Source: Stutzerimonas stutzeri | GTDB lineage: Bacteria > Pseudomonadota > Gammaproteobacteria > Pseudomonadales > Pseudomonadaceae | DNA length: 64,000 nucleotides | Assembly: GCF_002909485.1 (NCBI RefSeq) | Contig: NZ_PPXG01000005.1 | Location: 248,001 to 312,000, forward strand | Reading direction: 5' to 3' | In this document: in pieces, positions 4,406 through 19,355 of the stretch | Position numbering within the stretch: position 1 is the first letter of the stretch | Layout of the letters: each line of letters opens with the position of its first letter | The notes under the pieces: generated by a model | Databases searched by the model: none | Told to the model about the DNA's origin: nothing | Seen by the model: the letters and a program-made list of their open reading frames with translations, nothing else | Program-made: the position numbers and the translations under genes

Positions 4406-6286
4406 TCAGCCCTGGTGATAGCTCGGCGCGAGCTTGTAGACCGAGGTATCCAGCCCCTCGAAGCGTGCCTTCAGTTGCAATGCCAGGTACAGCGAGTAGT
4501 GCCGCGACTGGTGCAGGTTGCCGCCGTGGAACCAAAGGTGCTGCTGCTGGGTGGGCTTCCACATGTTACGCAGTTCACCTTCGTACGGGCCCGGGTCCTT
4601 GGTGGTGCCGGAACCCAGCCCCCAGCAGCGGCCGACCTTGTCAGCGACTTCCTGGGAGATCAAGCGAGCCGCCCAACCGTTCATGGAGCCGTAGCCGGTG
4701 GCGTAGACGATCAGGTCGGCCGGCAGGCGGCTGCCATCGTTGAGTACCACGGCATCCGCCTCGATGTGATCGACGCCGAGCCCAGGCCCGCTCTTCAGCT
4801 TGATGGTGCCGTTGGCGATCAGCTCGCAGGCGCCGACGTCGATGTAGTAGCCAGAGCCGCGGCGCACGTACTTGAGGAACAGACCGGATTCATCATCGCC
4901 AAAATCGAGCATGAAGCCCGCTGCAGTCAGCCGGTCGTAGAAATCTTTATCCCGCTCTTTGACCTGCTCGAAAGCCTGGCGATGGAACTGCGGCAGTACC
5001 TTGTAGGGGATCGAGGCGAACAGCATGTCGGCCTTGTCGGTGGTCAGCCCGTTTTCGACGGCATCCTCGGAATAGAGCGGGCCGAAGACCACTTCCATCA
5101 ACGTATCGGAGCGCACGATATGGGTGCTGGAACGCTGCACCATGGTGACGTCCGCGCCGTTTTCCACCAGGTCCGCACAGATGTCATGGGCCGAGTTGTT
5201 GGCACCGATGACCACCGCGCGCTTGCCGCGCCAGGCATCGCCGCCAGGGTGCTGGCTGGAGTGGTGTTGCTGGCCGGCGAAGGTTTCCGCACCTGGGTAG
5301 ACCGGCACGTTGGGCACACCGGACATGCCGGTGGCGAGGATCAGCTGTGCGGGCTTGAGGGTCATCGGTTTGCCGTCGCGCAGCACCTCGACCGTCCAGC
5401 GGCCTTCGGCTTCATCGAAGCTCGCTTTCACACATTCGGTCTTGGCCCAGTAGTTGAGCTCCATGACCTTGGTGTACATCTCCAGCCAGTCGCCGATCTG
5501 ATCCTTGGGCGTGAAGACTGGCCAATGGTCGGGGAAAGGCAGGTAAGGCATATGGTCGTACCAGACCGGGTCGTGCAGGCACAGCGACTTGTAGCGCCCG
5601 CGCCATTGATCGCCGGGGCGCTCGGCCTTGTCGACGATCAGCGTCGGTACGCCGAGACGCTTGAGTCGCGCACCGAGGCCGAGGCCGCCCTGGCCGCCGC
5701 CGATGACCAGGCAGTAGGGCTGCTCGGTGATGCCTAGCGAGGCTTCCTCGTCGCGGCGCTTTTCCAGCCAGTTGCGCTTGTCGGCCAGGCCGTGGCCGTG
5801 TTCGGCGCCTAGTGGGCGACGACGACCGAGCGGTTCCTCGTGCCCCTTCAACTCGCGCATGGTGGTCAGCAGCGTCCAGCACAGGCCGTCCTTCAGGCGT
5901 ACATAACCCTTGCCGCGTGCGACGTTGGTCTCCAGGCTGATCCAGCCTTCGAGCACGCCGCCGGCGAGGCTCGCTTCACCTTCGAGCTTCCACTTGTCCG
6001 GCTGGGTGGCTTCGAGCTGGTTTTCCAGCATGTCGCGGATATCAGCCTTGCCCTCGAGGGTGACCAGGTTCCAGCTGAACAGCACCAGATCGCGCCAGTG
6101 GCAGTCGTCGGCGAATAGCTCCAGGGTGGCGTCGATATCACGCTGGGCCAGGCGCTGGCCAAGGCGTTCGACCCAGGCGGTCAGTTGTTCGGTGGGGGAG
6201 TGGGTGGCAGTGGCCTGGCTGTCGCCGCCTAGGTCGCTGCCGTTATCGGTTTTCAGATCGAAGGGGACGTCGTTGCTGGGACGCAT
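4406..6286 (-). CDS. NTF2-like domain / flavin-dependent monooxygenase fusion
   Basis: 626 residues. Residues about 30-150 resemble the SnoaL/NTF2 fold (LAQRDIDATLELFADDCHWRD). From about 190 the protein is a class B flavoprotein monooxygenase-like enzyme: FAD-binding VIGGGQGGLGLG (196-201), ILATGMSGVP (about 316-324), a second Rossmann motif VVIGANNSAHDIC (361-368) for NADPH, and VYATGYGSMNG near the C-terminus. The ATG at 6286 has AGGAGA correctly placed; an ATG six codons earlier lacks this. It is transcribed away from a sigma-54 activator and has a -24/-12 promoter, so expression is probably induced by a signal the activator senses. Related enzymes are often annotated as monooxygenases or putative indole-acetate-type oxidoreductases; the substrate is unknown. 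Confidence 0.85.
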   Translation of the reverse strand: MRPSNDVPFDLKTDNGSDLGGDSQATATHSPTEQLTAWVERLGQRLAQRDIDATLELFADDCHWRDLVLFSWNLVTLEGKADIRDMLENQLEATQPDKWKLEGEASLAGGVLEGWISLETNVARGKGYVRLKDGLCWTLLTTMRELKGHEEPLGRRRPLGAEHGHGLADKRNWLEKRRDEEASLGITEQPYCLVIGGGQGGLGLGARLKRLGVPTLIVDKAERPGDQWRGRYKSLCLHDPVWYDHMPYLPFPDHWPVFTPKDQIGDWLEMYTKVMELNYWAKTECVKASFDEAEGRWTVEVLRDGKPMTLKPAQLILATGMSGVPNVPVYPGAETFAGQQHHSSQHPGGDAWRGKRAVVIGANNSAHDICADLVENGADVTMVQRSSTHIVRSDTLMEVVFGPLYSEDAVENGLTTDKADMLFASIPYKVLPQFHRQAFEQVKERDKDFYDRLTAAGFMLDFGDDESGLFLKYVRRGSGYYIDVGACELIANGTIKLKSGPGLGVDHIEADAVVLNDGSRLPADLIVYATGYGSMNGWAARLISQEVADKVGRCWGLGSGTTKDPGPYEGELRNMWKPTQQQHLWFHGGNLHQSRHYSLYLALQLKARFEGLDTSVYKLAPSYHQG

Positions 6287-6340
6287 GGTGGTTCTCCTGG
6301 TCATTGTTGTTATTCACGGGAATACCGTGCTTGCAGCAGA

Positions 6341-6355
6341 GCAAGCAGTGGGCCA
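6341..6355 (-). promoter_or_regulatory. Sigma-54 (-24/-12) promoter for the flavin monooxygenase
   Basis: On the minus strand the sequence reads TGGCCCACTGCTTGC, with GG and GC separated by exactly ten bases. It matches the TGGCAC-N5-TTGC consensus except for one -24 base. The predicted start of transcription is about 43 bases before the ATG at 6286. Confidence 0.65.
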
Positions 6356-6421
6356 GGGAGCGTTGCACCGCATGGTGGCTGGGCTTGGGTCGTATCGAGA
6401 CTTATCGGTCGAGGCTGCGAT

Positions 6422-6451
6422 GTGTCATTTCGGGTACGGCGTGGGTGACAC
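6422..6451. promoter_or_regulatory. Possible enhancer (UAS) inverted repeat for the sigma-54 activator
   Basis: Perfect arms GTGTCA (6422-6427) and TGACAC (6446-6451) are separated by 18 bases. The repeat starts about 67 bases upstream of the -24 element, a typical distance for an enhancer bound by an AcoR/NtrC-type activator. Binding by the neighbouring regulator is inferred. Confidence 0.4.
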
Positions 6452-6544
6452 TCTGTACCAGCCATGGCACAGCATGCGGGGCCCAGGCATTTGGCCTATG
6501 CTGGGCGCAAACCCGCCTCGAAACACCCGCGGAGAACAACAAGA

Positions 6545-8431
<1,887 letters not shown>

Positions 8432-8462
8432 ACTGGCGGACGCGACGCCCGCCGTTAGTGGG

Positions 8463-9446
8463 TCAGAGCGCGGTGGACAGGGTGATCGAGCCGAACTGGT
8501 CGTGCTCCTGCTGGCCCTGGAATTCGCGGGTGCGCCATACGTTGGCGAACGCCAGCTGCCAGCGGCTCCAGGTCAGCGCCACGCCGACCTTGGCATCACC
8601 AACCCACTCGCGACGGTCCACCGAATGGCTGTCCTCGAAGGTGTTGCCGTCCAGCAGCATGTTGTGCGCCATGTAGCGGCCTTCGACATTGGCAAAGCCG
8701 TACCAGGCGAAGTCGCCGCCGGGGCGGAAGAACTGGCTGCCGCTTTGCGCCGGTGTCACCGCCGGGATGCTGAAGCTGCGCTGCAGGTTCTGCCCCAGGC
8801 GCAGGCCCAGCCCGGCCGAGCCGTAACTGTAGAGGTTACCGAGGGCAAAACCGAGGCTCGGGCCGTACTCCATTTCCAACCCGGCGAAGTGCTCCTGCAG
8901 CCACCAGCGATGCTGATAGCCCAGATTTACGAAGGGTTCGTTCTCCAGCTGGTTATCCCAGCCGTTGGGTTCGTCGCTGCTCGTGACCTTGTGCACGGCG
9001 CGCTGCAGGCGCTTGCCGCCAGCGGCCGGACCGACGATGCCGACATCCAGGTGCAGGCCCTGAGCCGCACGCCAGCCATCGTGCTGCGTATCGGAGAACA
9101 TCGACATGCCAGCGAACAGCAGGCCGGCATAGGGGCGGTCATCTTCGATCAGCCCTCGGGTTTCGATTTCCTCCGGCGTATAGATCTGATGGCCGAAGCG
9201 GTAGGCGACGTTGTCGACTGTGGCACCTGACCAGCCGGGGAGCAGATCGGCGAAGCGCCGCGTCCAGCTCTGGTTGTCCGGTTCGAAACCCCAGATCACC
9301 TCCAGCCCATTGCTGTAATGACCATCGCTGCCCCTGGCGATGATGTCGTTCTCAACCTTGATGGAGAGGATGTCGGCACGGCTGACGACGGGTGTGGCGA
9401 TGGTTGCGGCGAGCAGGCACGAGCACAGCAAAGAACGAGAATGCAT
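8463..9446 (-). CDS. LpxR-like lipid A deacylase (DUF2219 family outer-membrane protein)
   Basis: 327 residues with a Sec signal peptide (MHSRSLLCSCLLAATIATPVVSRA). The mature start, ILSIKVENDIIARGSDGHYSNG, carries the conserved Asn-Asp (N33, D34) and the D.HY(T/S)NG motif of LpxR, and DDRPYAGLLFAG is another family hallmark. The rest is beta-barrel-like with many aromatic residues. LpxR enzymes in Salmonella and Helicobacter remove the 3'-acyloxyacyl group of lipid A in the outer membrane. The gene ends 32 bases from the convergent activator stop. The next gene upstream on the same strand is the SGNH protein of the MBOAT cassette, 78 bases away, so joint envelope remodelling is possible but unproven. 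Confidence 0.85.
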   Translation of the reverse strand: MHSRSLLCSCLLAATIATPVVSRADILSIKVENDIIARGSDGHYSNGLEVIWGFEPDNQSWTRRFADLLPGWSGATVDNVAYRFGHQIYTPEEIETRGLIEDDRPYAGLLFAGMSMFSDTQHDGWRAAQGLHLDVGIVGPAAGGKRLQRAVHKVTSSDEPNGWDNQLENEPFVNLGYQHRWWLQEHFAGLEMEYGPSLGFALGNLYSYGSAGLGLRLGQNLQRSFSIPAVTPAQSGSQFFRPGGDFAWYGFANVEGRYMAHNMLLDGNTFEDSHSVDRREWVGDAKVGVALTWSRWQLAFANVWRTREFQGQQEHDQFGSITLSTAL

Positions 9447-9524
9447 GATCTGACTCCTGGCTTACGTTCTTGTTTGTATGTACTTGTTCTCGGACCGTCG
9501 CCGCTCCCGGCGGTTCGCTTGAGG

Positions 9525-10589
9525 TCAGGGCGTGTCGAATACGCCGCTGCCGGCCAGTGTCGATTCACCAAGCCTAGCCTGCTCCGCCTCGCGCAGTTGC
9601 TCGGCAAGCGCCTCGGAAAAGCCTTGCACGGCAGACCAGCGCAGGTGAATGGCGTCAACGAAGGCAGCAGGTGGGGCAACCCATTCCCGGTCGGCGTTCC
9701 AGTATTGCGCGCCCGTATTTCCGGCGATGACGGCATTCAGCTTGGCGTCGAAGCGGGTCAGAAAGCTGCCGTCGGCATCGACCTTCGCCTTCCACTGCGG
9801 GTGCAGCGGCGTGGAGACCACCAGCAACTGGCGCTGCTCGTCCTTCAGGCGTTTTGACAGCTTGCCCAACGCGGCGAAGCAGCTGTCATCCAGTGAATCG
9901 GGCTTGCCGTAGAACAGGCCGCGGTCGCCCCGTGGCTCCAGCGGCCCATCGCCGTGACGGGTGAATACCAGCGGGTCCCATTCGATCTCGTTGGCTCGTT
10001 GCGCCTTCACCGTCTTCGCGTTGCGCAGTAACGAGCGCGGCGAGAAATAGCGCATGTAATAACCCCAGCGTGAGGCCTGCTGATAAACGTAGTGATCGGC
10101 ATCCTCGCGGTCGAATACCGCATCCGGCACCTTCCAGCAGCCGGCAAAGTCCAGTGGGTCGACGATCATCACCACCTGGCGAACGGTGGGCTCGCGGTCC
10201 AGCAGCCAGTTGGCGACATAGGTCGACTGATTGGCGTGCAGGCCGCAGAACGCACCGTTGAGCGGACGCACACCCGGCGCCTGTTCGATCAGCACATCAC
10301 CGTCGACATGGCGCCAGGCGACCGAGGAGCCGACGATCAGAAGGTTTGGATCGGCGATGGGGTTGTGCCGCAGAAAGCGCAGCTTTTCGTCCACGCACAG
10401 GCTGTTGGAAAAAGCCGGTGGCGGCAGGTTGTCGGTGTGATTGAGCCAGGCAAGCAGGGCGGCAAAGCCGCCGAGCATCCCGAACAGCCCGGCGAACATG
10501 CCCAGCAGGTAGCCGGCACGGAACGGCCGCCGGTCTGCCTCGGCCCGGGCGGCATCGCCGCCCGGGCATGTATCGACGGATCTGGCCAT
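9525..10589 (-). CDS. Membrane-anchored SGNH-like acyltransferase/hydrolase of the MBOAT cassette
   Basis: 354 residues. One N-terminal TM (about 26-48) places the rest in the periplasm. LLIVGSSVAW (GSS at 87-89) fits the SGNH block I serine, and DAIHLRW (D312, H315) fits the C-terminal Asp-x-x-His pair, so a Ser-Asp-His triad appears present. This architecture (one TM, SGNH fold, DxxH) matches DltD and the AlgJ/AlgX-type partners of MBOAT proteins. The start is 3 bases beyond the ACP stop, and the gene is the last of a tightly packed four-gene cassette. Likely role: final transfer of an acyl group from the MBOAT channel to a periplasmic or cell-surface acceptor. The acceptor is unknown, and a named family could not be assigned. 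Confidence 0.7.
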   Translation of the reverse strand: MARSVDTCPGGDAARAEADRRPFRAGYLLGMFAGLFGMLGGFAALLAWLNHTDNLPPPAFSNSLCVDEKLRFLRHNPIADPNLLIVGSSVAWRHVDGDVLIEQAPGVRPLNGAFCGLHANQSTYVANWLLDREPTVRQVVMIVDPLDFAGCWKVPDAVFDREDADHYVYQQASRWGYYMRYFSPRSLLRNAKTVKAQRANEIEWDPLVFTRHGDGPLEPRGDRGLFYGKPDSLDDSCFAALGKLSKRLKDEQRQLLVVSTPLHPQWKAKVDADGSFLTRFDAKLNAVIAGNTGAQYWNADREWVAPPAAFVDAIHLRWSAVQGFSEALAEQLREAEQARLGESTLAGSGVFDTP

Positions 10590-10592
10590 GAC

Positions 10593-10841
10593 TCAACGCC
10601 CTCCGAGTTTGGTCTGGATCAGCTGGGCGAAGTGGCCAACGTTCTTCAGCGATTCCAGTTCGGCGGTGCGGAACTTGATGCCGAAGCGTTGCTCGGCGGC
10701 CACGATCAGCAACACATGGGTCTGACTGTCCCAGCCATCGATGTCGTCGGCGGTGGTTTCGGGCGTGAGGACGATATCGTCAGCATCGAACACGTCGTGG
10801 AAGATCTGGGTCAGCGCCTGGAGAATTTCCTTTTCGTTCAT
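10593..10841 (-). CDS. Acyl carrier protein of the FkbH/MBOAT cassette
   Basis: 82 residues, acidic, with the four-helix ACP pattern. DDIDGWDSQTHVLLIV contains the phosphopantetheine-attachment serine (S39) in the WDS context seen in ACPs that pair with FkbH-like proteins and in DltC. The start ATG overlaps the stop of the FkbH gene (ATGA), implying translational coupling and equal expression. It probably carries the acyl or glyceryl thioester made by FkbH to the MBOAT protein at the inner face of the membrane. The residue after the serine is Gln rather than the usual Leu, which may reflect specialisation for its partners. Confidence 0.85.
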   Translation of the reverse strand: MNEKEILQALTQIFHDVFDADDIVLTPETTADDIDGWDSQTHVLLIVAAEQRFGIKFRTAELESLKNVGHFAQLIQTKLGGR

Positions 10842-12739
10842 GCTTGCACCTGGATGTGATGGTGGATGGAAGCGCGCGAGGCCAGCTCGTAGCGCCAGAA
10901 ACTTGCATCGGCGATTGCGTTTGCAGGGGCGGGGCGCTGCTCGAAGCCCAGCCGCGGATAGTGCTCGGCGACCATGCCGTTGCGTTCGGTGGGGCGATAT
11001 TCGCCAACCAAGGCGCCCCAGCCCGCAGCGGTTGCCGCGTCGACCAGCACCTCAAGCACCGCCGCTTCGACCTGGCGACCCAGTACGCGGCAGCTCATCA
11101 GCCAGCTGTCGATCAGCAGCTCATCGGCTCCGAGAGCTGCATCGGGTCTTGCCAGCATCACGCTGATCAGGCCGTTGTCACCGAACTTGTCCTCCAGCCG
11201 CAGGGCCAGGGCGATGGCTCGTGGATCGCTGGCCATGCGCTCGACTTCGGCTTCGGTATAGCGGCGGGTGGTCAGGTTGAACTGGTTGGTCTTGTTGATC
11301 AGCTGGGTGGCGCGGGCCAGTTCGGTGGCGCCGATGTTGCTGACGCGCAGGACCATCTGCAGCCCGCGCAGGTAGCCCTCCATGTCCGTGGCCTGGCCCT
11401 GCGCGGCCTTGCGCTCGGCGTTAAGCGCATAGCTGCGACCGCGCGCGGCGTCATCGAAGGTAAAGGACACGGCTTCAAAATAGCCGGCCGCGGCGATGCA
11501 TGCGGGGTAGTCGGCGACATCGTCGGGCAGTTCTGGAACGGCGACTTCCGGCAGCTCGCGGCGCACGATGTCGCGCTCGGCCGGGTTGTCGTCGACGAAG
11601 ACGAGGCTGTCCAGACCGATATCCAGCATGCTCGCGATGCGCCGCAGATTGCCGGCCTTGTCTTCCCAGTTGGCAACAAAGGCTGCGATATCGCTGCGTT
11701 TGAGTGCCATTTCCGGGTGCGCGAATGCCGCTTCGGCGACGTGCAGGTCGTTCTTGCTGCACACCGCCAGAATCACCCCGCGACAGGCCAGTTGAGCGGC
11801 GTAGTGCTGGAAGGCCAGATATGCCTCGCCGCTGGCGCTGCCCTGGCCGAGGTGGATGCCGTCGATGCCGTCATCACCGATCACACCGCCCCAGAGGGTG
11901 TTGTCCAGATCGAGTACCAGGCATTTGCGTGACAGTCCGGCGGTGGCCGCTGCGATGCGCGCCAGCTGCTCGCCGTAAAGCGGTGCCAGCGTCGGGCTGA
12001 CCAGCTGCTTGGCCTGGTGCCAGCGCACCGGCTCGGCCAGGCCATCGCCATACGCGGTTGCCTGCCAGGCCAAGTCGAGCAGCAGCACGCCATCCTCGCG
12101 GGCAGCGGCTCGGATAGCAGTGTTCAATCGTTCGATGACTGCCCGTGGCGAAGCCGGCACCAAAGCTTCGTAAGAGCCGAACAGCGACGGTGCGACCGGC
12201 ACCAGGGTTTGCTGCACCACCTGCGCGGCATAGCGTTCGCGGGCCCGGCGCCAGAGCATGCGCAGCTCATCGACGCGTTCCGCCACGGCGGCATCCACCT
12301 CCGCCTGGCCTGCCTGCAAGGGCAGTTGCAGCGGCGCGTCATGGGCGTCCAGCGCCAGCAGCACCAATTGCGGGGCAAAGGCGTTCAGCGCCGGGTCATC
12401 AGCAAGCAGGGCCTGGCGGTACATGCCGTAGGGCGCCACGTGCAGCGAAAGCGCCAGCCGCCGCTGCAACCCGGCCACGCGGATGGCCGGCAGCAGGTGA
12501 TCGACCGTATGCGAGGACAGCAATGCCAGCCGCAGCGGCGTCAGTCGTGCCGCCGCGGCGTGCTGTTCGATGCCGGCGGCGGCCAGCTTGTCCTGGCGTG
12601 CCGTCAGGGTGAAATCTCGCTGAAAATTGGCCAGCCGTGCGGCCTCGCACAGCCGCTGCAGCGGATCGTCGATGCGCTTGGCTTGGCTGATCGCGCCGGA
12701 TAGATCCGGGTGCGTCGGCAGCCAGGGGAGTTGTGCCAT
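10838..12739 (-). CDS. Three-domain FkbH-like protein (SGNH-like, HAD-IIIC, GNAT-like)
   Basis: 633 residues. Residues 1 to about 265 form a weak SGNH-like domain (LALLSSHTVDHLLPAIR near 71-87). Residues about 271-450 are a HAD-IIIC phosphatase domain with VLDLDNTLWGGVIGDDG (nucleophile D277, D279), VCSKND and FVDDNPAERD. The C-terminal part (about 455-620) resembles a GNAT domain (INKTNQFNLTTRRYTEAEV, SCRVLGRQVEAAVL). FkbH proteins such as those in FK520 and tetronate pathways load a D-3-phosphoglycerate-derived glyceryl unit onto an ACP as a thioester. With an ACP overlapping downstream and an MBOAT gene upstream, this protein probably supplies the acyl-ACP. The actual acyl group is not readable from sequence. 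Confidence 0.85.
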   Translation of the reverse strand: MAQLPWLPTHPDLSGAISQAKRIDDPLQRLCEAARLANFQRDFTLTARQDKLAAAGIEQHAAAARLTPLRLALLSSHTVDHLLPAIRVAGLQRRLALSLHVAPYGMYRQALLADDPALNAFAPQLVLLALDAHDAPLQLPLQAGQAEVDAAVAERVDELRMLWRRARERYAAQVVQQTLVPVAPSLFGSYEALVPASPRAVIERLNTAIRAAAREDGVLLLDLAWQATAYGDGLAEPVRWHQAKQLVSPTLAPLYGEQLARIAAATAGLSRKCLVLDLDNTLWGGVIGDDGIDGIHLGQGSASGEAYLAFQHYAAQLACRGVILAVCSKNDLHVAEAAFAHPEMALKRSDIAAFVANWEDKAGNLRRIASMLDIGLDSLVFVDDNPAERDIVRRELPEVAVPELPDDVADYPACIAAAGYFEAVSFTFDDAARGRSYALNAERKAAQGQATDMEGYLRGLQMVLRVSNIGATELARATQLINKTNQFNLTTRRYTEAEVERMASDPRAIALALRLEDKFGDNGLISVMLARPDAALGADELLIDSWLMSCRVLGRQVEAAVLEVLVDAATAAGWGALVGEYRPTERNGMVAEHYPRLGFEQRPAPANAIADASFWRYELASRASIHHHIQVQA

Positions 12740-12760
12740 GCCTGTGACTCCTTGTCGTGG

Positions 12761-14299
12761 TCAGAACTGGAAATAGAGGAATTCGGTCGGCGCCATGGAA
12801 AAGGCGATCGCCAAGGCAAAGAAACCGAGCACACCCACCGCCAGGCCGTGAATTGCCGTCGGGCGCCAGGCGCTGGCCGGCAGCAATCGTTCGGTCCAGT
12901 GCGGCTGGGCCTTGTAGTTGAGTGCGGTACGGAAGTGGCCCATCCACTGCTGCACGTTCGGCATGCCCCAGACGAACACCAGCAGCGCGGCGATATAGAC
13001 GAAATCGGAGCGATCCATCGCCGCGCTGGTCGGGCTCAGGCCGAGCATGCCGGCGAGGATTGCCATGGCCGTAGGCACGTCACTGGCGCGGAAGAACACC
13101 ATCGCCACGACGACGCAGCCAAAGGTCAGGGCGACTGCTGGTGCCTTGTGCCACCAGATATCGCTGTCCAGCTTCCAACCCTGACGCGCCTTCCAGGCAC
13201 GCCAGCCGTGGGCCAGCACCAGGTACAGGCCATGTAGCAGGCCGAATGCGACGAAATGCCAGCCGGCGCCATGCCAGATACCGGAAATGAACATGGTGAA
13301 CACGGTGGGGTAGGCGACCAGAGCGAAGAAGGTGCCGGCGGTCATCTTGCCGCGCCGTGGCTGTGGCTTGCCGGCGGCCATGCGGGCGCGGGTCACGCGC
13401 AGCACGATGGGGTTGTAGATGTAGGCGGTGAGAAAGCGTGTCAGCGTCATGTGCCAGCGCGACCAGTAGTCGATAACGTTGCGCGCCTTGAACGGGCTGT
13501 TGAAGTTGGCTGGCAGGCTGATACCGAACAGCAACGCCAGGCCGATGGCCATGTCGCTGTAGCCGGAGAAGTCGAAGTAAATCTGCAGCGTGTAGGTCAG
13601 CGCGCCGGTCCAGGCGTCGTAAAACGCCGGGATGGTGCCGTCGGCGGCCAGGCTGAACACCGGCGTGGCTTTCAGCGCGAGGGTGTCGGCGATCACCACC
13701 TTCTTGAACAGGCCGAGCAGAAACACCGTGGCGCCCAGCGACAGGTTGTCGATGCGCGCGCGGAAGCTGTCGCGGTCGTTGAACTGCGCAAGCATCTCAC
13801 CGTGGTGGGTGATCGGCCCGGCGATCAGCTGCGGGAAGAAGCTGATGAACAGGCAGTAGTTGGCGAAGTCGTGCTCTTCCACCACACCATCGTTGGCATC
13901 GACCAGATAGGCGATCTGCTGGAAAGTGAAGAAGGAGATCGCCAGCGGCAGGATGATGTCTTCGACGCGCCAACCGAGATCCAGTGCTGCATCCAGCGTG
14001 CCGAGCAGGAAGCCGGTGTACTTGTAGTAGACCAGTAGCAGCACGTTGGCCGTGACCGCCAGCCCGAGTGCCAGGCGTGAGGGGTGCCGGCGCAGGTAGC
14101 CACCGAGCAGATAGTTGACCAGCATGCTGCCGACCAGCAGCGGTACATAGACCGGGTTCCACCAGCCGTAGAACACCAACGAGACGACGGTCAGCCAGAT
14201 CACCGCGAGCCGCTGTCGGCCCGATCCGGTCAGCACGAAGAATCCAATCAACACCACCGGAAGAAAGCCGGCGATGAACTCCAATGAATTGAAAAGCAT
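12761..14299 (-). CDS. MBOAT family O-acyltransferase (AlgI/DltB-like)
   Basis: 512 residues with about ten to twelve TM helices. Family landmarks are LQIYFDFSGYSDMAIGLA (about 238-255), NFNSPFKARNVIDYWSRWHMTL with His283, and SGIWHGAGWHF with the catalytic His343. AlgI and DltB share these and move acyl groups across the inner membrane to an external polymer. The gene opens the four-gene cassette and is 21 bases upstream of FkbH. A GGGAAG ribosome site precedes the ATG. AlgF/AlgJ/AlgX partners are absent, and the donor is more likely the cassette's own ACP, as in Dlt systems, so it is probably not alginate acetylation. Confidence 0.9.
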   Translation of the reverse strand: MLFNSLEFIAGFLPVVLIGFFVLTGSGRQRLAVIWLTVVSLVFYGWWNPVYVPLLVGSMLVNYLLGGYLRRHPSRLALGLAVTANVLLLVYYKYTGFLLGTLDAALDLGWRVEDIILPLAISFFTFQQIAYLVDANDGVVEEHDFANYCLFISFFPQLIAGPITHHGEMLAQFNDRDSFRARIDNLSLGATVFLLGLFKKVVIADTLALKATPVFSLAADGTIPAFYDAWTGALTYTLQIYFDFSGYSDMAIGLALLFGISLPANFNSPFKARNVIDYWSRWHMTLTRFLTAYIYNPIVLRVTRARMAAGKPQPRRGKMTAGTFFALVAYPTVFTMFISGIWHGAGWHFVAFGLLHGLYLVLAHGWRAWKARQGWKLDSDIWWHKAPAVALTFGCVVVAMVFFRASDVPTAMAILAGMLGLSPTSAAMDRSDFVYIAALLVFVWGMPNVQQWMGHFRTALNYKAQPHWTERLLPASAWRPTAIHGLAVGVLGFFALAIAFSMAPTEFLYFQF

Positions 14300-14661
14300 C
14301 TTCCCTATCCCTGCTCAGCGTACGTGCATCGCTGCTCAGGCCGCTGGTGAGGCGGGGCGAGTCATCCATTCAGTCCTAGCGTCACGCTGCCGGCAACCCA
14401 TCCTGGTCGGCGTTGCGACATCCTCGGTCCATCATTGGGTGCTCGCTCGGGCTAAGGCCATCTTGGCCGCCTTCCCCTGAGCTCCTATGGCTCCGACTGG
14501 AAGATGTAAAAAAAAGTTTCAGTTTCGTACGGTGCCGTCGGGCGCCTTGTTAAATCAGGTCAATCAGCCCCCGGCTGGCAAGGGCTGCAGGCCATTTCCG
14601 TCGGTCGGCAAAGTTCCTTTGCCTGGTTGGAAAGGTGTCAAGGAGGGCAAATCACGAGCGT
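14300..14661. other. Long leader/intergenic region upstream of the MBOAT cassette
   Basis: About 360 bases without a convincing gene. Read on the minus strand, the roughly 200 bases before the MBOAT start hold ten GGA triplets (for example AGGACT and ATGGATGA) and several small stem-loops such as GGCC-AAGAT-GGCC. A sigma-E-like promoter motif lies at 14492-14520. No known riboswitch consensus could be matched by eye. Confidence 0.4.
14492..14520 (-). promoter_or_regulatory. Possible AlgU/sigma-E-type promoter for the MBOAT cassette
   Basis: The minus strand reads GAAACTT, a T-rich 16-base spacer, then GTCGGA. This resembles the envelope-stress sigma factor pattern GAACTT-N16-TCTGA with mismatches in both boxes. 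It would give a leader of about 185 bases before the ATG at 14299. Confidence 0.3.
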
Positions 14662-14706
14662 AAAAAAGGCCGACTTTGACGGGTGACCCATCTTTGAATC
14701 GGCCTT
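14662..14706 (-). terminator. Rho-independent terminator for the small membrane protein gene
   Basis: AAGGCCGA (14666-14673) and TCGGCCTT (14699-14706) pair. On the minus strand the hairpin is followed by a run of T (six A on the plus strand at 14662-14667). It lies 20 bases downstream of the 14726-14962 stop. Confidence 0.75.
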
Positions 14707-14725
14707 GTATCCAGCTCGCAATAAC

Positions 14726-14962
14726 TTAGCGAGCAGTACTCAACCCCACGCTTGGAGTGCGCACTCGCTGAGACGGTTTCGGCCTCGCGGTCGGAGGCTC
14801 GATCTTGCTTTGCAAATGCCTGACCGTACGCTTGAGGCGCATCACCTTGTCTTCCAATTGAAAGACCTTGCGGTTGTTGTAGAACATGCCCAGCACGAAC
14901 CCCACCGAAGTGAAGACCAGGCCATAAATGAGTGCGGCTTCATAGAGATAGCTGGAAAACAT
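14726..14962 (-). CDS. Small membrane protein with C-terminal coiled coil, unknown function
   Basis: 78 residues from the ATG at 14962, which has GAGGATGACAGG upstream; an earlier ATG 11 codons before lacks this. One TM (YEAALIYGLVFTSVGFVLGMFY, about 6-27) is followed by a basic heptad-like helix (FQLEDKVMRLKRTVRHLQSK) and a Pro/Arg-rich tail. It is a single-gene unit with its own terminator. I do not recognise the family. It could be an inner-membrane scaffold or cell-envelope accessory protein, but nothing in the sequence decides this. Confidence 0.6.
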   Translation of the reverse strand: MFSSYLYEAALIYGLVFTSVGFVLGMFYNNRKVFQLEDKVMRLKRTVRHLQSKIEPPTARPKPSQRVRTPSVGLSTAR

Positions 14963-15099
14963 CCTGTCATCCTCTGCGGGTAATGGCTGTATCACGTTGC
15001 GTAATGCAGCCCAGAACGGCCTGATGCCAATCTGCCCCTATGTGACATGGCGCACATTAAAAACGTTCCCGACTGGTGCGCACTCCGGGGATGCCAATC

Positions 15100-15768
15100 T
15101 CAGCGGGCGGACGCGGACATTGCGATGGCGGCGGCGGCCGTTCGCGTCTCAACGCCGAGTTTCACGTAGACATGTTCCAGATGCTTGTTCACCGTCCGCG
15201 GGCTAAGCCCGAGGATATCGCCGATATCGCGGTTGGTTTTGCCGCAGGATACCCAGTGCAGAACTTCAACTTCTCGCCCGGTTAATTGATAGCGCTGGGT
15301 TAGCATGGCCTGAATCTGCCTGTTATCTGCGGGGGGCGTCTGAGTTGAGATAAGGCGAGCGTTCTGCAAGGCGCGGGCAGTGCGTAGGTGTGCAGCCACT
15401 CGGGCCAGGACCTGTTCCGGGTGGATAGGCTTGGTCACGTAGTCGATGCCGCCCGCCTCGAAGCCGGCAAGCACATGCTCGCTTTCGGTCAGGGCAGTCA
15501 TGAACAGCACCGGCACGTCTTCCAGCTCGGTCTGCGCCTTGATCCGGCGGCAGGTATCGAAACCGTCCAGCCCGGGCATCATGGCGTCGAGCAGAACGAT
15601 ATCCGGCTTCAGCCGCTGCATTCGCTCCAGCGCGCTGAGGCCGTCCAACGCCACCAGCACCATGTAGCCGGCCTGATCCAGTGCGCCGGAGAGCAGGGCG
15701 AGGTTGTCGGGCACGTCATCGACGATCATCACGATGCCCTGATTCTGCGGATGATCAGCTGGATGCAT
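15100..15768 (-). CDS. LuxR/NarL-type response regulator of the amide/urea regulon
   Basis: 222 residues. The receiver domain has VMIVDDVPDN, phosphoacceptor Asp61 in IVLLDAMMPGLDG, the T in FMTAL and Lys in YVTKPIHPEQ. The C-terminal LuxR helix-turn-helix is LTGREVEVLHWVSCGKTNRDIGDILGLSPRTVNKHL. The start lies inside the last codons of the hybrid kinase (14-base overlap), so the two are translated together and very likely form a phosphorelay. It is the best candidate to bind the TACGT-N6-ACGTA palindromes found upstream of urtA and fmdA. The effector that starts the relay is probably an amide or urea sensed by the kinase's transporter domain, which is an inference. Confidence 0.85.
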   Translation of the reverse strand: MHPADHPQNQGIVMIVDDVPDNLALLSGALDQAGYMVLVALDGLSALERMQRLKPDIVLLDAMMPGLDGFDTCRRIKAQTELEDVPVLFMTALTESEHVLAGFEAGGIDYVTKPIHPEQVLARVAAHLRTARALQNARLISTQTPPADNRQIQAMLTQRYQLTGREVEVLHWVSCGKTNRDIGDILGLSPRTVNKHLEHVYVKLGVETRTAAAAIAMSASAR

Positions 15769-18700
15769 GGGTGTTCTCCATGGTCGTCTGAATCTCGTTG
15801 GTCATGGCCTGATCCAGGCGCTGGCCCAGTTCGTTCAGCTGGAAACGTCTGGCCAGTTGGCGCAGTTCCTGGAGTTGCGCGGCGGCGGCCGGCAGGTCGT
15901 GTTCGAGCTGGTCGAGCAGTTCGAGCACGCCGCGTACATATCCGAGCGAGGTCTGTTGCTGCAGCGCGTGCAGTGCATCGAGCGGCAGGGCAGCGGCCAT
16001 CGAAGCGGAGGCGTCCGCATCGCGTCTGAGCCATTCCAGCGCCAGCTGCTGGCGAATCTTGTCCAGCAGCACCGGGGCATGCACCGGCTTGGGCAGGTAG
16101 TCACTGCAATCGGCGGCGACACTCGCTCCGTCGACGAAGGCATTGGCGGAAATGACGATGATCGGCGCCGTCGAACCCACCGAGCGGCGAATCAGCCTGG
16201 CGGTCTGCCAGCCGTCGAGCTGCGGCATGGAAAGGTCCATCAGGATCAGATCAGGGTTGTGCAGCGATACCTGGCTGAGCGCTTCCTGGCCGTTGCTGGC
16301 CATGAGTATTTCGAAGCCCAATGGCTCGAGCATGCCGGCCAGCACCTTGCGGTGTTCGATGTGGTCGTCGACCACCAGCACTCGGCGGCGCGGGCCGTGG
16401 TAGCCGATGATGTCGTGTTCGACATGGACCACCGCCTGCGGCACGCGCACTTCGGAGAGGAACAGGCGCAGCTGGAAGACGCTGCCGCGACCTTGCTCGC
16501 TCTTCATCGACAGCTCGCCGCCCATCAACGCGGTGAGCATGCGGGTGATGGTCAGGCCGAGGCCCAGGCCGCTGTCCTGGCGCAACGGATTGCCTCGCTC
16601 GAACGGCTGGAACAGTCGCTCCACCTGCTCGGGGGCGATGCCGATGCCGGTGTCGGCGATCTCGAAGGTCGCCGTTTCGCGCAGGTAGCTGGCGCGCAGG
16701 GTGATGCTGCCGGCGTCCGTGTAGCGCACCGCGTTGCCGAGTAGGTTGATGAGGATCTGCCGCACACGTTTCTCATCACCACGCACCACGGCCGGGATGC
16801 GGCCCTGGGTTTCGAAGTGGAAGCGCAGACCTTTTTCCTCGGCCTGCGGCGCGATCATCTGCCGTACCTGCAGGAGAAATTCGGGAAAGGCGATCTCGGA
16901 GGGCTCCAGATTGAGTTTTCCGGCCTCGATCCTGGCCACGTCGAGCAACCCGTCGATCAGCGAGAGCAGGTGAGCGCCGCTGCGATGGATGGTGCCCAGC
17001 GCTTCCTTGTGTCGCGTCGGCAGCTCGCCATCGCGCAACAGGATCTGCGCATAGCCGAGGATGCTGTTGAGCGGGGTGCGCAGCTCATGGGACAGGCCGG
17101 TCACATAGCGGCTCTTGGCGGCATTGGCTGCCTCGGACGCCTCCTTGGCCTTCTGCAGCTGTTCGTCGGTCTTGCGGTGGGCTTCGATTTCCTGCATCAG
17201 CAGGTGGGTCTGGCGATCCGATTCCTGCTGGGCGACGTGGCGGCTTTCGCGGGTAAGCACCACCCACCAGGCGAGAATGCCGGCGAACAACGAGAGCACC
17301 AGGAACGCCTTGAGAAACGCCTGATAAAGGGTTTCTCCCGCCTCCTGCGAGCTGGCCACGACACTCGGCGAGACCTGGCTGTAAATCAGCCAGAGCGCCA
17401 GCGAAAGCAGGCCGATGATCAGGCCGAGCACACCGAGGTAGTGCGCCAGGCGGGTGTGTAGCCGCGGGATGGACACCTGTGGGAAGGCCCAGCGAACGAA
17501 GTTGTCCCACTGCGCCGAAAGCCGGGCGTGCGGCTTGCACAGGTCGCCGCATCGGGCGTCTAGCGAGCAGCACAGCGAGCAGATCGGCGCACCGTAGGCG
17601 GGGCAGAAGGCGGTGTCCGGCTCCTCGAAGGCATTGCTGCACAGCACGCAGGCGATCTTGCCGCGCTCGGTATAGGGGTAGAGCAGCTCTGGCTGGCGTT
17701 TACGGGCGATATAGAAGCGCCCGCCGGTGAGCCAGGCGATCAGCGGTGCGCAGACCAGCGCGGTGCCCAGCGCGATCATCGGTGAGGCTGCCTGGACCAG
17801 TGCACCGAGCGCGCCGCTGTGGGCGAGGATCGCTAGAAACGAGGCGATCAGCATGGCGCCGACGCCCACAGGGTTGATGTCGTAGAGGTGCGCGCGCTTG
17901 AATTCGATCTGCCGCGGCGACAGGCCCAGCGGCTTGTTGATCACCAGGTCCGCGACTAGCGCGCCGATCCAGGCGATTGCGACGTTGGCGTACAGTCCGA
18001 GCACCTGCTCGATGGCCTCGAACACGCCCAGCTCCATCAGCATCAGCGCGATCGAGACGTTGAATACCAGCCAGACCACCCGCCCCGGATGGCTGTGGGT
18101 GACGCGCGCGAAGAAGTTCGACCAGGCCAGGGAGCCGGCATAGGCGTTGGTCACGTTGATCTTCACCTGCGAGACGATGACGAACAGCACCATTGCGCCC
18201 AGCGCCCATTCCGGCGAGGCGAACACGTAGCTGAAGGCCACCAGATACATCTGCGTCGGTTCGGCCGCCTTGTCCACCGGGATTTCGTGCTGCAGTGCGA
18301 GAAAGGCAAGAAAGGCGCCGGCGAGCATCTTCAGCGCGCCGGGGATGATCCAGCCGGGGCCGGCGGCTAGCATCGCCAGCCACCAGCGGACGCGGTTCTG
18401 TCGGGTCTTCTCGGGCAGGAAGCGCAGGTAGTCGACCTGCTCGCCGATCTGCGTGATCAGTGCCAGCGCCACGGTGCAGGCGGCGCCGAAGGACAGTAGG
18501 TTGAACGAGCCGCCGTCGCCTTCGCGGCCGGCGAAACTGGTCAGATCGCTCAGCGCTTCTGGGTTCTTGGCGATGACGAAGATGTAGGGCAGCAACAAAA
18601 GGATCAGCCAGACCGGTTGCGTCCAGAGCTGCAGGCGGTTGATCAGGGTGATGCCGTAGGTCACCAGCGGCACGATGATGATCGAGCAGATCACGTAGGC

Positions 18701-19159
18701 CAGCGCCAGCGGGATGCCGAAGTACAGCTCCAGCGCCAGCGCCATGATCGCCGCTTCGAGGGCGAAGAACAGGAAGGTGAAGCTGGCGTAGATCAGCGAG
18801 GTGATGGTCGAGCCGATGTAGCCGAAGCCGGCGCCGCGGGTCAGCAGGTCCATGTCCACGCCGTAGCGCGCCGCGTAGTAACTGATCGGCAACCCGGTGA
18901 GGAAAATCACCAGCGCCACCGCGAGGATTGCCCAGAGCGTATTGGTGAAACCGTAGGAAAGGGCCAGCGTGCCGCCGATGGCTTCCAGGGCAAGGAACGA
19001 AACCGCACCGAGCGCGGTGTTGGCGATACGAAATTCCGACCACTTGCGAAACGACTTGGGAGTGAAACGCAGGGCGTAGTCTTCCAGCGTCTCGTCGGCG
19101 ACCCAGCTGTTGTAGTCGCGGCGGATCTTGACGATGCGCTGTGTGCCTGTGATCTGCAC
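15755..19159 (-). CDS. Transporter-linked hybrid histidine kinase (NCS1 permease / Cys-rich / HisKA / receiver)
   Basis: About 1134 residues if started at the GTG at 19159, which has GGGG 9 bases upstream. The open frame extends to 19345, but that part would overlap the regulatory palindromes' flank and looks non-coding. Residues about 20-500 form an NCS1 cytosine/purine-permease-like domain with about twelve TMs. Next is a cysteine-rich module (CVLCSNAF...CPAY...CSLCC...CGDLC), two TMs, a coiled linker, HisKA with SHELRTPLNS (His691), an HATPase (NLLGNAVRYTDAG, DTGIGI, GLGLGLTITRM) and a receiver with Asp975 in LILMDLSMPQ. The design recalls CbrA, where an SLC5 transporter is fused to a kinase. 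It overlaps the response regulator gene and is divergent from urtA. Confidence 0.85.
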   Translation of the reverse strand: MQITGTQRIVKIRRDYNSWVADETLEDYALRFTPKSFRKWSEFRIANTALGAVSFLALEAIGGTLALSYGFTNTLWAILAVALVIFLTGLPISYYAARYGVDMDLLTRGAGFGYIGSTITSLIYASFTFLFFALEAAIMALALELYFGIPLALAYVICSIIIVPLVTYGITLINRLQLWTQPVWLILLLLPYIFVIAKNPEALSDLTSFAGREGDGGSFNLLSFGAACTVALALITQIGEQVDYLRFLPEKTRQNRVRWWLAMLAAGPGWIIPGALKMLAGAFLAFLALQHEIPVDKAAEPTQMYLVAFSYVFASPEWALGAMVLFVIVSQVKINVTNAYAGSLAWSNFFARVTHSHPGRVVWLVFNVSIALMLMELGVFEAIEQVLGLYANVAIAWIGALVADLVINKPLGLSPRQIEFKRAHLYDINPVGVGAMLIASFLAILAHSGALGALVQAASPMIALGTALVCAPLIAWLTGGRFYIARKRQPELLYPYTERGKIACVLCSNAFEEPDTAFCPAYGAPICSLCCSLDARCGDLCKPHARLSAQWDNFVRWAFPQVSIPRLHTRLAHYLGVLGLIIGLLSLALWLIYSQVSPSVVASSQEAGETLYQAFLKAFLVLSLFAGILAWWVVLTRESRHVAQQESDRQTHLLMQEIEAHRKTDEQLQKAKEASEAANAAKSRYVTGLSHELRTPLNSILGYAQILLRDGELPTRHKEALGTIHRSGAHLLSLIDGLLDVARIEAGKLNLEPSEIAFPEFLLQVRQMIAPQAEEKGLRFHFETQGRIPAVVRGDEKRVRQILINLLGNAVRYTDAGSITLRASYLRETATFEIADTGIGIAPEQVERLFQPFERGNPLRQDSGLGLGLTITRMLTALMGGELSMKSEQGRGSVFQLRLFLSEVRVPQAVVHVEHDIIGYHGPRRRVLVVDDHIEHRKVLAGMLEPLGFEILMASNGQEALSQVSLHNPDLILMDLSMPQLDGWQTARLIRRSVGSTAPIIVISANAFVDGASVAADCSDYLPKPVHAPVLLDKIRQQLALEWLRRDADASASMAAALPLDALHALQQQTSLGYVRGVLELLDQLEHDLPAAAAQLQELRQLARRFQLNELGQRLDQAMTNEIQTTMENTHASS

Positions 19160-19355
19160 GCTGGCGGCCCCGGCTGGTTGTCGTTTCCCTGGTTTGAGCA
19201 ACTTCCGTGCCCCCGTTCGGCACTGCTGATGACTCGCGGCGAAGCACGGAACGCATGCCGGCGCAGCGCTGCCGTGATCGGCAGGGGTGAGGGTTGCCGC
19301 TGCTGCCGTGCTCCATACCGGCGCAAGGATGCACCAGCAGTGCACCTGCTACGGA

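Follow-up and report, generated by a model that had tools for sequence, protein, structure and literature searches.

A stretch of 64,000 nucleotides from Stutzerimonas stutzeri (NZ_PPXG01000005.1, positions 248,001-312,000; hereafter the window, meaning the whole stretch analysed) carries at its positions 9,525-14,299 a cassette of four genes, encoding a transmembrane acyltransferase of the MBOAT family, an FkbH-type loader, an acyl carrier protein (ACP) and an SGNH acyltransferase. The four genes are a real and conserved gene set, without a name as far as found. Together they probably form a self-contained system which would esterify an extracytoplasmic glycan with a glyceryl group produced by FkbH and handed on through the ACP, Tyr509 of the MBOAT and the SGNH protein. 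The gene set, its conservation, the folds and the motifs come directly from the analysis, and the features are as follows.

12761..14299, minus strand: MBOAT transmembrane acyltransferase, 512 aa, with His283 and His343 (PF03062; nearest solved structure DltB, E=2e-32)
12764..12781, minus strand: codons of F507-L-Y509-F-Q-F512, a putative acyl shuttle with Tyr509 (alignment; function of the motif taken from PatA/DltX, excerpts of PMC12148441)
10838..12739, minus strand: FkbH-type loader, 633 aa, with SGNH-like (~67-270), HAD-IIIC (~264-424) and GNAT-like (~461-621) domains (TIGR01686; 3slr; predicted model)
10593..10841, minus strand: ACP, 82 aa, phosphopantetheine site Ser39 in GWDSQ (family scan, motif)
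9525..10589, minus strand: SGNH acyltransferase, 354 aa, with one N-terminal helix, G87-S88-S89, D312 and H315, and invariant C151 and C237 (motif, alignment, model)

Along the minus strand, the order is MBOAT (14299-12761), FkbH (12739-10838), ACP (10841-10593) and SGNH (10589-9525), with 21 bases between the first two genes, an overlap of 4 bases between FkbH and ACP, and 3 bases between ACP and SGNH. A preliminary description of this DNA had listed an MBOAT with His283/His343, a three-domain FkbH, an ACP and an SGNH protein, the genes being separated by gaps of 3-21 bases or overlapping by 4 bases; all four proteins are present as described, and the coordinates bear out the packing. The host genome (4.80 Mb) has a single detected MBOAT, one copy of FkbH and one match to the phosphopantetheinyl transferase family (PF01648). 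The closest named relatives of the cassette belong to Stutzerimonas, and dN/dS ranges from 0.045 to 0.35 in 22 of 24 gene comparisons, the remaining two not being computable. A scan for promoters and terminators gave zero promoter-like sites, and 7 terminator-like sites compared with 4.9 (standard deviation 2.1) in shuffles. A phage or defence origin was rejected, PHROGs giving a single weak match to the ACP and PADLOC none.

In the MBOAT, both His283 and His343 are kept throughout the alignment (31/31 sequences), and F507, Y509 and F512 are equally invariant. The protein ends in FLYFQF, which matches the FxYxxF motif, a feature absent from the preliminary description. According to the excerpts of PMC12148441, PatA acetylates the tyrosine of its own C-terminal FXYXXF motif and PatB can use the acetylated peptide; the acyl-tyrosine shuttle is demonstrated there for PatA and described for DltX. 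The motif was found in 53 of the 54 FkbH-linked MBOAT rows of the tree (n=67), and it is not restricted to them, occurring also in 12 of the 13 FkbH-free MBOATs. In the same tree, 12 of these 13 form a supported clade and the last one (L049) sits on a very long branch, the FkbH-free set being small and drawn from the same order and genus.

The FkbH protein passes the TIGR01686 model with 288 bits against a cut-off of 147. The residues D277/D279 of the HAD DxDxT motif are kept in all 87 rows of the alignment and C550 in 84/84 rows over 600 aa, the rows representing loci in which an MBOAT occurs as well and including some genomes twice. The excerpts of PMC7489565, citing earlier work, ascribe the formation of glyceryl-ACP from 1,3-bisphosphoglycerate to FkbH-like proteins that are accompanied by stand-alone ACPs. 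From this family function we infer that FkbH loads a glyceryl group on the ACP of the cassette, and the identity of the acyl group is proposed accordingly as glyceryl. An FkbH-ACP pair of different company is found on a Niveispirillum plasmid (L152:8983-13463), where a putative acetyltransferase of the WcbI family and an SDR gene follow, with no MBOAT found in that stretch.

The N-terminal helix of the SGNH protein is presumably a membrane anchor, with the protein facing the periplasm. It has the serine and the DxxH of the SGNH partners of PatAB-type systems. In a Foldseek search with its model, DltD ranks first (TM ~0.4), and Pfam DltD has no match in the protein at E<=0.001, DltD having been sought by a family scan of this protein and by fold, not genome-wide. 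In two Stutzerimonas genomes (G426:C21 and G443:C12), the SGNH gene contains an in-frame stop.

A search of 56 genomes of the genus recovered the SGNH gene in 49 and FkbH in 35. SGNH occurs without an FkbH match in 14 genomes; the loci of three of them were inspected (L032, L034, L035 and L037), and the interval between MBOAT and ACP reads N, FkbH being uncheckable there. Full or nearly full MBOATs are present in 32 of 37 same-genus genomes, with 73-100% identity. Two genomes, G001 (L027/L028) and G022 (L025/L026), have two full MBOAT copies each, and all four loci hold the four genes. The FkbH proteins of these duplicate cassettes are ~92-93% identical to that of the window, and their flanks differ, one copy being located beside an LpxR gene and the other not.

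The wider distribution was followed in named loci, which are the best 80 of 573 FkbH relatives and include 21 from the Stutzerimonas branch (L071-L090 and L112, some titled Pseudomonas). An MBOAT lies within 5 kb on the same strand in 69 of the 80, a proportion which is too high for FkbH in general because of this choice of loci and the share of the branch among them. These 69 loci include an ACP in 67 cases, the other two (L088 and L112) being near contig ends. An SGNH protein is recognised in 49 by hidden Markov model (HMM) and in 60 by HMM or motif; as a control, none of 224 genes more than 5 kb away satisfied the motif rule. Of the nine loci without a recognised SGNH protein, four were marked as lying close to the end of a contig (L088, L112, L139 and L147). 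As for the remaining five, L140 has two ALGX proteins, and the neighbors in L133, L142, L143 and L146 fail the motif rule.

The hosts of the named loci include Stutzerimonas, Pseudomonas, Halopseudomonas, Azomonas, Roseomonas, Belnapia, Sphingomonas, Paracoccus and Paraburkholderia, together with metagenome-assembled genomes (MAGs) of Acidobacteria, Gemmatimonadales and one cyanobacterium. Gene order is lineage specific: MBOAT-FkbH-ACP-SGNH, SGNH-like-FkbH-ACP-MBOAT or FkbH-ACP-MBOAT-SGNH.

Homology to proven systems makes the predicted relay, from ACP to MBOAT Tyr509 to the SGNH serine to a periplasmic glycan, a well-supported one. By comparison with proven homologues, AcpS would convert the ACP to holo-ACP at Ser39. 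FkbH would then accept the acyl phosphate of 1,3-bisphosphoglycerate, form an enzyme thioester and hand the three-carbon group over to the ACP; its HAD domain would strip the 3-phosphate, as expected for the FkbH family, to give D-glyceryl-S-ACP. With such loading, an ATP-dependent ligase of the DltA type would not be needed. The MBOAT, like its proven homologues, would take the group from the ACP on the cytoplasmic side of the His283/His343 funnel to its own Tyr509. From the tyrosine peptide the group would move to the active-site serine of the SGNH protein in the periplasm, again as in proven homologues; by analogy with the GDS motif, this serine is probably Ser89. Finally, the SGNH protein would esterify a hydroxyl group on a surface glycan, which may be exopolysaccharide, capsule or lipopolysaccharide (LPS); only the gene contexts in other species point to this acceptor class.

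In the scanned distant copies, the context is often glycan-related, and several are located among capsule, exopolysaccharide or nucleotide-sugar genes. For instance, in Alcaligenaceae CAII-52 (L140:2-14233), Epimerase_2, a GT2 synthase, NfrA_C and the two ALGX proteins precede FkbH-ACP-MBOAT, with a VOC gene as well, in what is apparently a secreted-polysaccharide locus. A Leptolyngbyaceae MAG (L117) contributes GT4, an ABC transporter, an SIS/CBS isomerase and a match to capsule synthesis that falls just below its cut-off. In Sinorhizobium meliloti, pSymB (L154:11625-16659) carries the set VOC-MBOAT-409 aa protein-ACP-FkbH, with K-antigen-type genes (capsular biosynthesis, RkpR and KpsF) at a distance of 9-13 kb, recombinase and transposase genes in between and AI-2 uptake genes on the other side. 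Its MBOAT ends in FLYQGF, and its 409 aa SGNH-like protein, which carries the annotation of a TonB receptor, has GGS and DPGH on visual inspection and failed the stricter motif rule. Nucleotidyltransferase and RmlC-type epimerase clusters occur in five loci, namely, L094 (a Polaromonas MAG) and L102, L106, L110 and L128 (alphaproteobacteria); an epimerase/dehydratase cluster is also present in four of these, the clusters having been identified from one scanned representative each. On a Rhodobacteraceae plasmid, the set is near sulfotransferase genes.

Further enzymes, of kinds that might work on acyl thioesters, repeatedly adjoin FkbH-ACP-MBOAT in distant genomes. Genes of a MaoC+SDR cluster are found in L116, L117, L125, L127 and L144 (L125 scanned), of a MaoC cluster in L057, L058, L128 and L132 (cluster member L059 scanned), and of VOC type in L140, L153 and L154. 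These neighbors suggest that in other lineages the acyl group may be modified before export, and it is a matter of speculation that lactyl or the other stereoisomer would result.

Several observations weigh against the interpretation as a conserved glyceryl relay to a glycan. In a class sample, FkbH at E<=1e-40 occurs in 19 of 370 genomes, the host included. Outside the genus there are 20 FkbH matches, four of which lie in frames of 1294-4609 aa; 16 regions (14 genomes), two of them shorter than 5 kb, were inspected, and an MBOAT adjoins FkbH in only two, both from genome G413. The cassette is therefore patchy outside its branch, and the joint conservation of the genes, on which the preliminary description had made its reading depend, holds among the best relatives and is seen in only these two of the 16 regions from the class sample. 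The 54 FkbH-linked MBOATs of the tree are not resolved as one clade (two label changes), some grouping loosely with the FkbH-free clade. Among FkbH-linked MBOAT reading frames with readable ends, L058 and L147 lack the C-terminal motif, although L147 has a second overlapping frame ending in it. In FkbH, 6 of 87 rows have Ser or Ala in place of C327 of the CSKN motif; since this residue varies, it is a doubtful site for the enzyme thioester, and C550 is the better candidate. The upstream SGNH-like protein of another architecture (A4) gave no significant alignment with the SGNH group (hhalign, E=0.11), and its homology to the cassette protein was not supported, motifs alone being in common. Some scanned contexts are not glycan-related, i.e., L092 (exchanger), L109 (ApbE), L120 (kinase) and L115 (regulator). 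In Stutzerimonas itself the neighbors are unrelated, with FMO and a DhaR-like regulator in the window and homogentisate genes, a chemoreceptor, a thiolase and a short-chain fatty acid transporter in L035, so the acceptor is not indicated by context. Finally, the MaoC/SDR or VOC enzymes beside distant copies suggest an altered acyl group there, so glyceryl need not be universal. The acyl transfer through the MBOAT to a surface glycan or lipid, as the preliminary description had it, gains from the genes standing together in close relatives, from the HAD motif kept in FkbH and from the glycan contexts of several distant copies, while the acyl group and the acceptor keep the status of predictions.

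One more gene downstream may touch on the acceptor.

8463..9446, minus strand: LpxR-family outer-membrane lipid A deacylase, 78 bases downstream of the SGNH gene and of uncertain membership in the unit (PF09982, E=6e-103)

LpxR is within 80 bases of the SGNH gene in 11 of the 19 named Stutzerimonas-branch loci holding SGNH but does not accompany the cassette in the remaining eight, and as a fixed fifth gene it was rejected. A DRL-type oxidoreductase is near some Stutzerimonas copies of the cassette. At 15755-19345 on the minus strand, the window encodes a 1196-aa protein with Pfam histidine kinase and receiver domains; its N-terminal 500 residues presumably resemble an NCS1-like permease, and we take the gene beside it to be UrtA-like.

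The same relay may carry a group other than glyceryl, if enzymes whose genes lie elsewhere convert the glyceryl-ACP made by FkbH into a lactyl, hydroxymalonyl or epimeric form, or if this FkbH branch takes another acyl phosphate. The MaoC, MaoC+SDR or VOC genes of distant genomes speak for such a change; however, MaoC, SDR and VOC are all missing from the window cassette and no such cluster adjoins the four genes in the Stutzerimonas and Pseudomonas loci laid out, and we regard this possibility as unlikely, if one to be kept in mind. It is rather improbable that the acceptor is the lipid A or core of LPS, with LpxR as part of the same envelope-remodelling unit: the proximity of LpxR in 11 branch loci agrees with it, but the other eight branch loci do without, and an HMM built from the window LpxR has zero matches in the distant loci L055-L070 and L090-L150.

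Two further explanations dispense with the glyceryl relay. An ordinary O-acetylation of polysaccharide or peptidoglycan (PatAB/AlgIJ type), with ACP and FkbH as accessories, would explain why an MBOAT with fused FxYxxF and its SGNH partner resemble PatA/PatB. It becomes very unlikely in view of FkbH and ACP accompanying the MBOAT in 67 of the 69 named loci, and of the clade of their own formed by 12 of the 13 FkbH-free MBOATs in the small sample compared. Similarly, FkbH and ACP could serve a secreted small molecule, the MBOAT acylating the metabolite, since FkbH is typical of clusters resembling those of polyketide synthases (PKS) and non-ribosomal peptide synthetases (NRPS), and suomilide clusters contain an FkbH domain and an MBOAT (excerpts of PMC13122637). 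Against this, the ten window genes scanned (4406-19345) include no PKS or NRPS, and the cassette has a putatively membrane-anchored SGNH partner; we give this explanation hardly any credit.

The glyceryl relay, if generalised, would be a widespread but patchy Gram-negative pathway that puts glycerate on surface glycans, driven by 1,3-bisphosphoglycerate and not by ATP or acyl-CoA. In other lineages, accessory MaoC/SDR or VOC enzymes would retune the group before export (lactyl, an inverted stereocenter), and a single MBOAT-SGNH platform supplied by the ACP would thereby write several kinds of C3 hydroxyacyl mark. This extension is tentative, and we hold it at somewhat less than an even chance. 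If true, envelope chemistry would be tied to glycolytic flux. The cassette predicts a testable chemistry, i.e., glycerate esters on bacterial glycans formed without an adenylating ligase. Gellan is an example of a bacterial polysaccharide with glycerate substituents, and to our knowledge the glycerate substituents of some bacterial polysaccharides have no assigned enzymes, for which the cassette genes are candidates; a literature search on the link to gellan yielded nothing useful. The proposal also offers a label for genes now annotated as "HAD-IIIC family phosphatase," "MBOAT family protein" or "hypothetical protein."

The preliminary description knew of no assigned function for the set, and, in agreement, the matches listed from the open-licence PMC literature include no description of FkbH with MBOAT-SGNH for envelope modification. 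FkbH and MBOAT occur together in cyanobacterial suomilide/aeruginosin clusters, where the FkbH domain charges an NRPS with glycerate and the MBOAT is proposed to acylate a sugar (excerpts of PMC10143770 and PMC13122637). Carrier proteins and glycerate are not mentioned in the excerpts of PMC9487903.

Among known systems, the formation of glyceryl-ACP of FkbH/OzmB type (methoxymalonyl-ACP, glycerate-utilisation operons of tetronates) shares FkbH and a stand-alone ACP with the cassette, which differs in having no oxidising, methylating or ketosynthase partners and in that the group is apparently exported via MBOAT and SGNH. The Bacteroides FkbH-like BF1531 (PDB 3slr) is entered as "uncharacterized protein," its N-terminal part alone being solved.

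The O-acetylation systems PatA/PatB, AlgI/J/X and WssH/I resemble the cassette in their Gram-negative MBOAT with a fused C-terminal FxYxxF and an SGNH partner. PatAB-type units have no carrier-protein gene, whereas here the ACP and its loader FkbH are built into the conserved unit. Acetylation of alginate or cellulose type was rejected, the cassette MBOAT being the only MBOAT found in the genome; a search for ALGX gave no match, but neither did its controls.

The Dlt system (DltABCD with DltX, D-alanylation of teichoic acid) has in common with the cassette a carrier protein gene, an MBOAT, an SGNH protein with one N-terminal helix and an acyl-tyrosine motif. The carrier protein is encoded inside the cassette, as in Dlt, and is predicted to act as donor. 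On the contrary, the cassette has FkbH where Dlt has the ATP-using DltA, its motif sits on the MBOAT itself, and its host is Gram-negative and without teichoic acid. Plain Dlt membership was rejected: the MBOAT misses the cut-off of the DltB equivalog TIGR04091 (191 vs 375 bits), the best match to DltA (TIGR01734) in the host genome reaches 105 bits against a cut-off of 560, with none in the cassette, and the motif is fused. The view of the preliminary description, a Dlt-like cassette with FkbH in place of DltA, is hence right about the missing DltA and too narrow for an MBOAT that fails the DltB model and has its tyrosine shuttle fused as in PatA. In the excerpts of PMC12148441, MBOAT-SGNH pathways are divided into Dlt, with a carrier protein and DltX, and others, with acyl-CoA and a fused tyrosine motif. 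The cassette crosses this division, and it is a hybrid system because the ACP and presumed loader are as in Dlt, the tyrosine motif is fused as in PatA and FkbH replaces DltA. Overall, it mixes the predicted carrier-protein donor of Dlt with the fused tyrosine shuttle of PatA, and it is a variant within the MBOAT-SGNH acyl-transfer pathways and not a separate kind.

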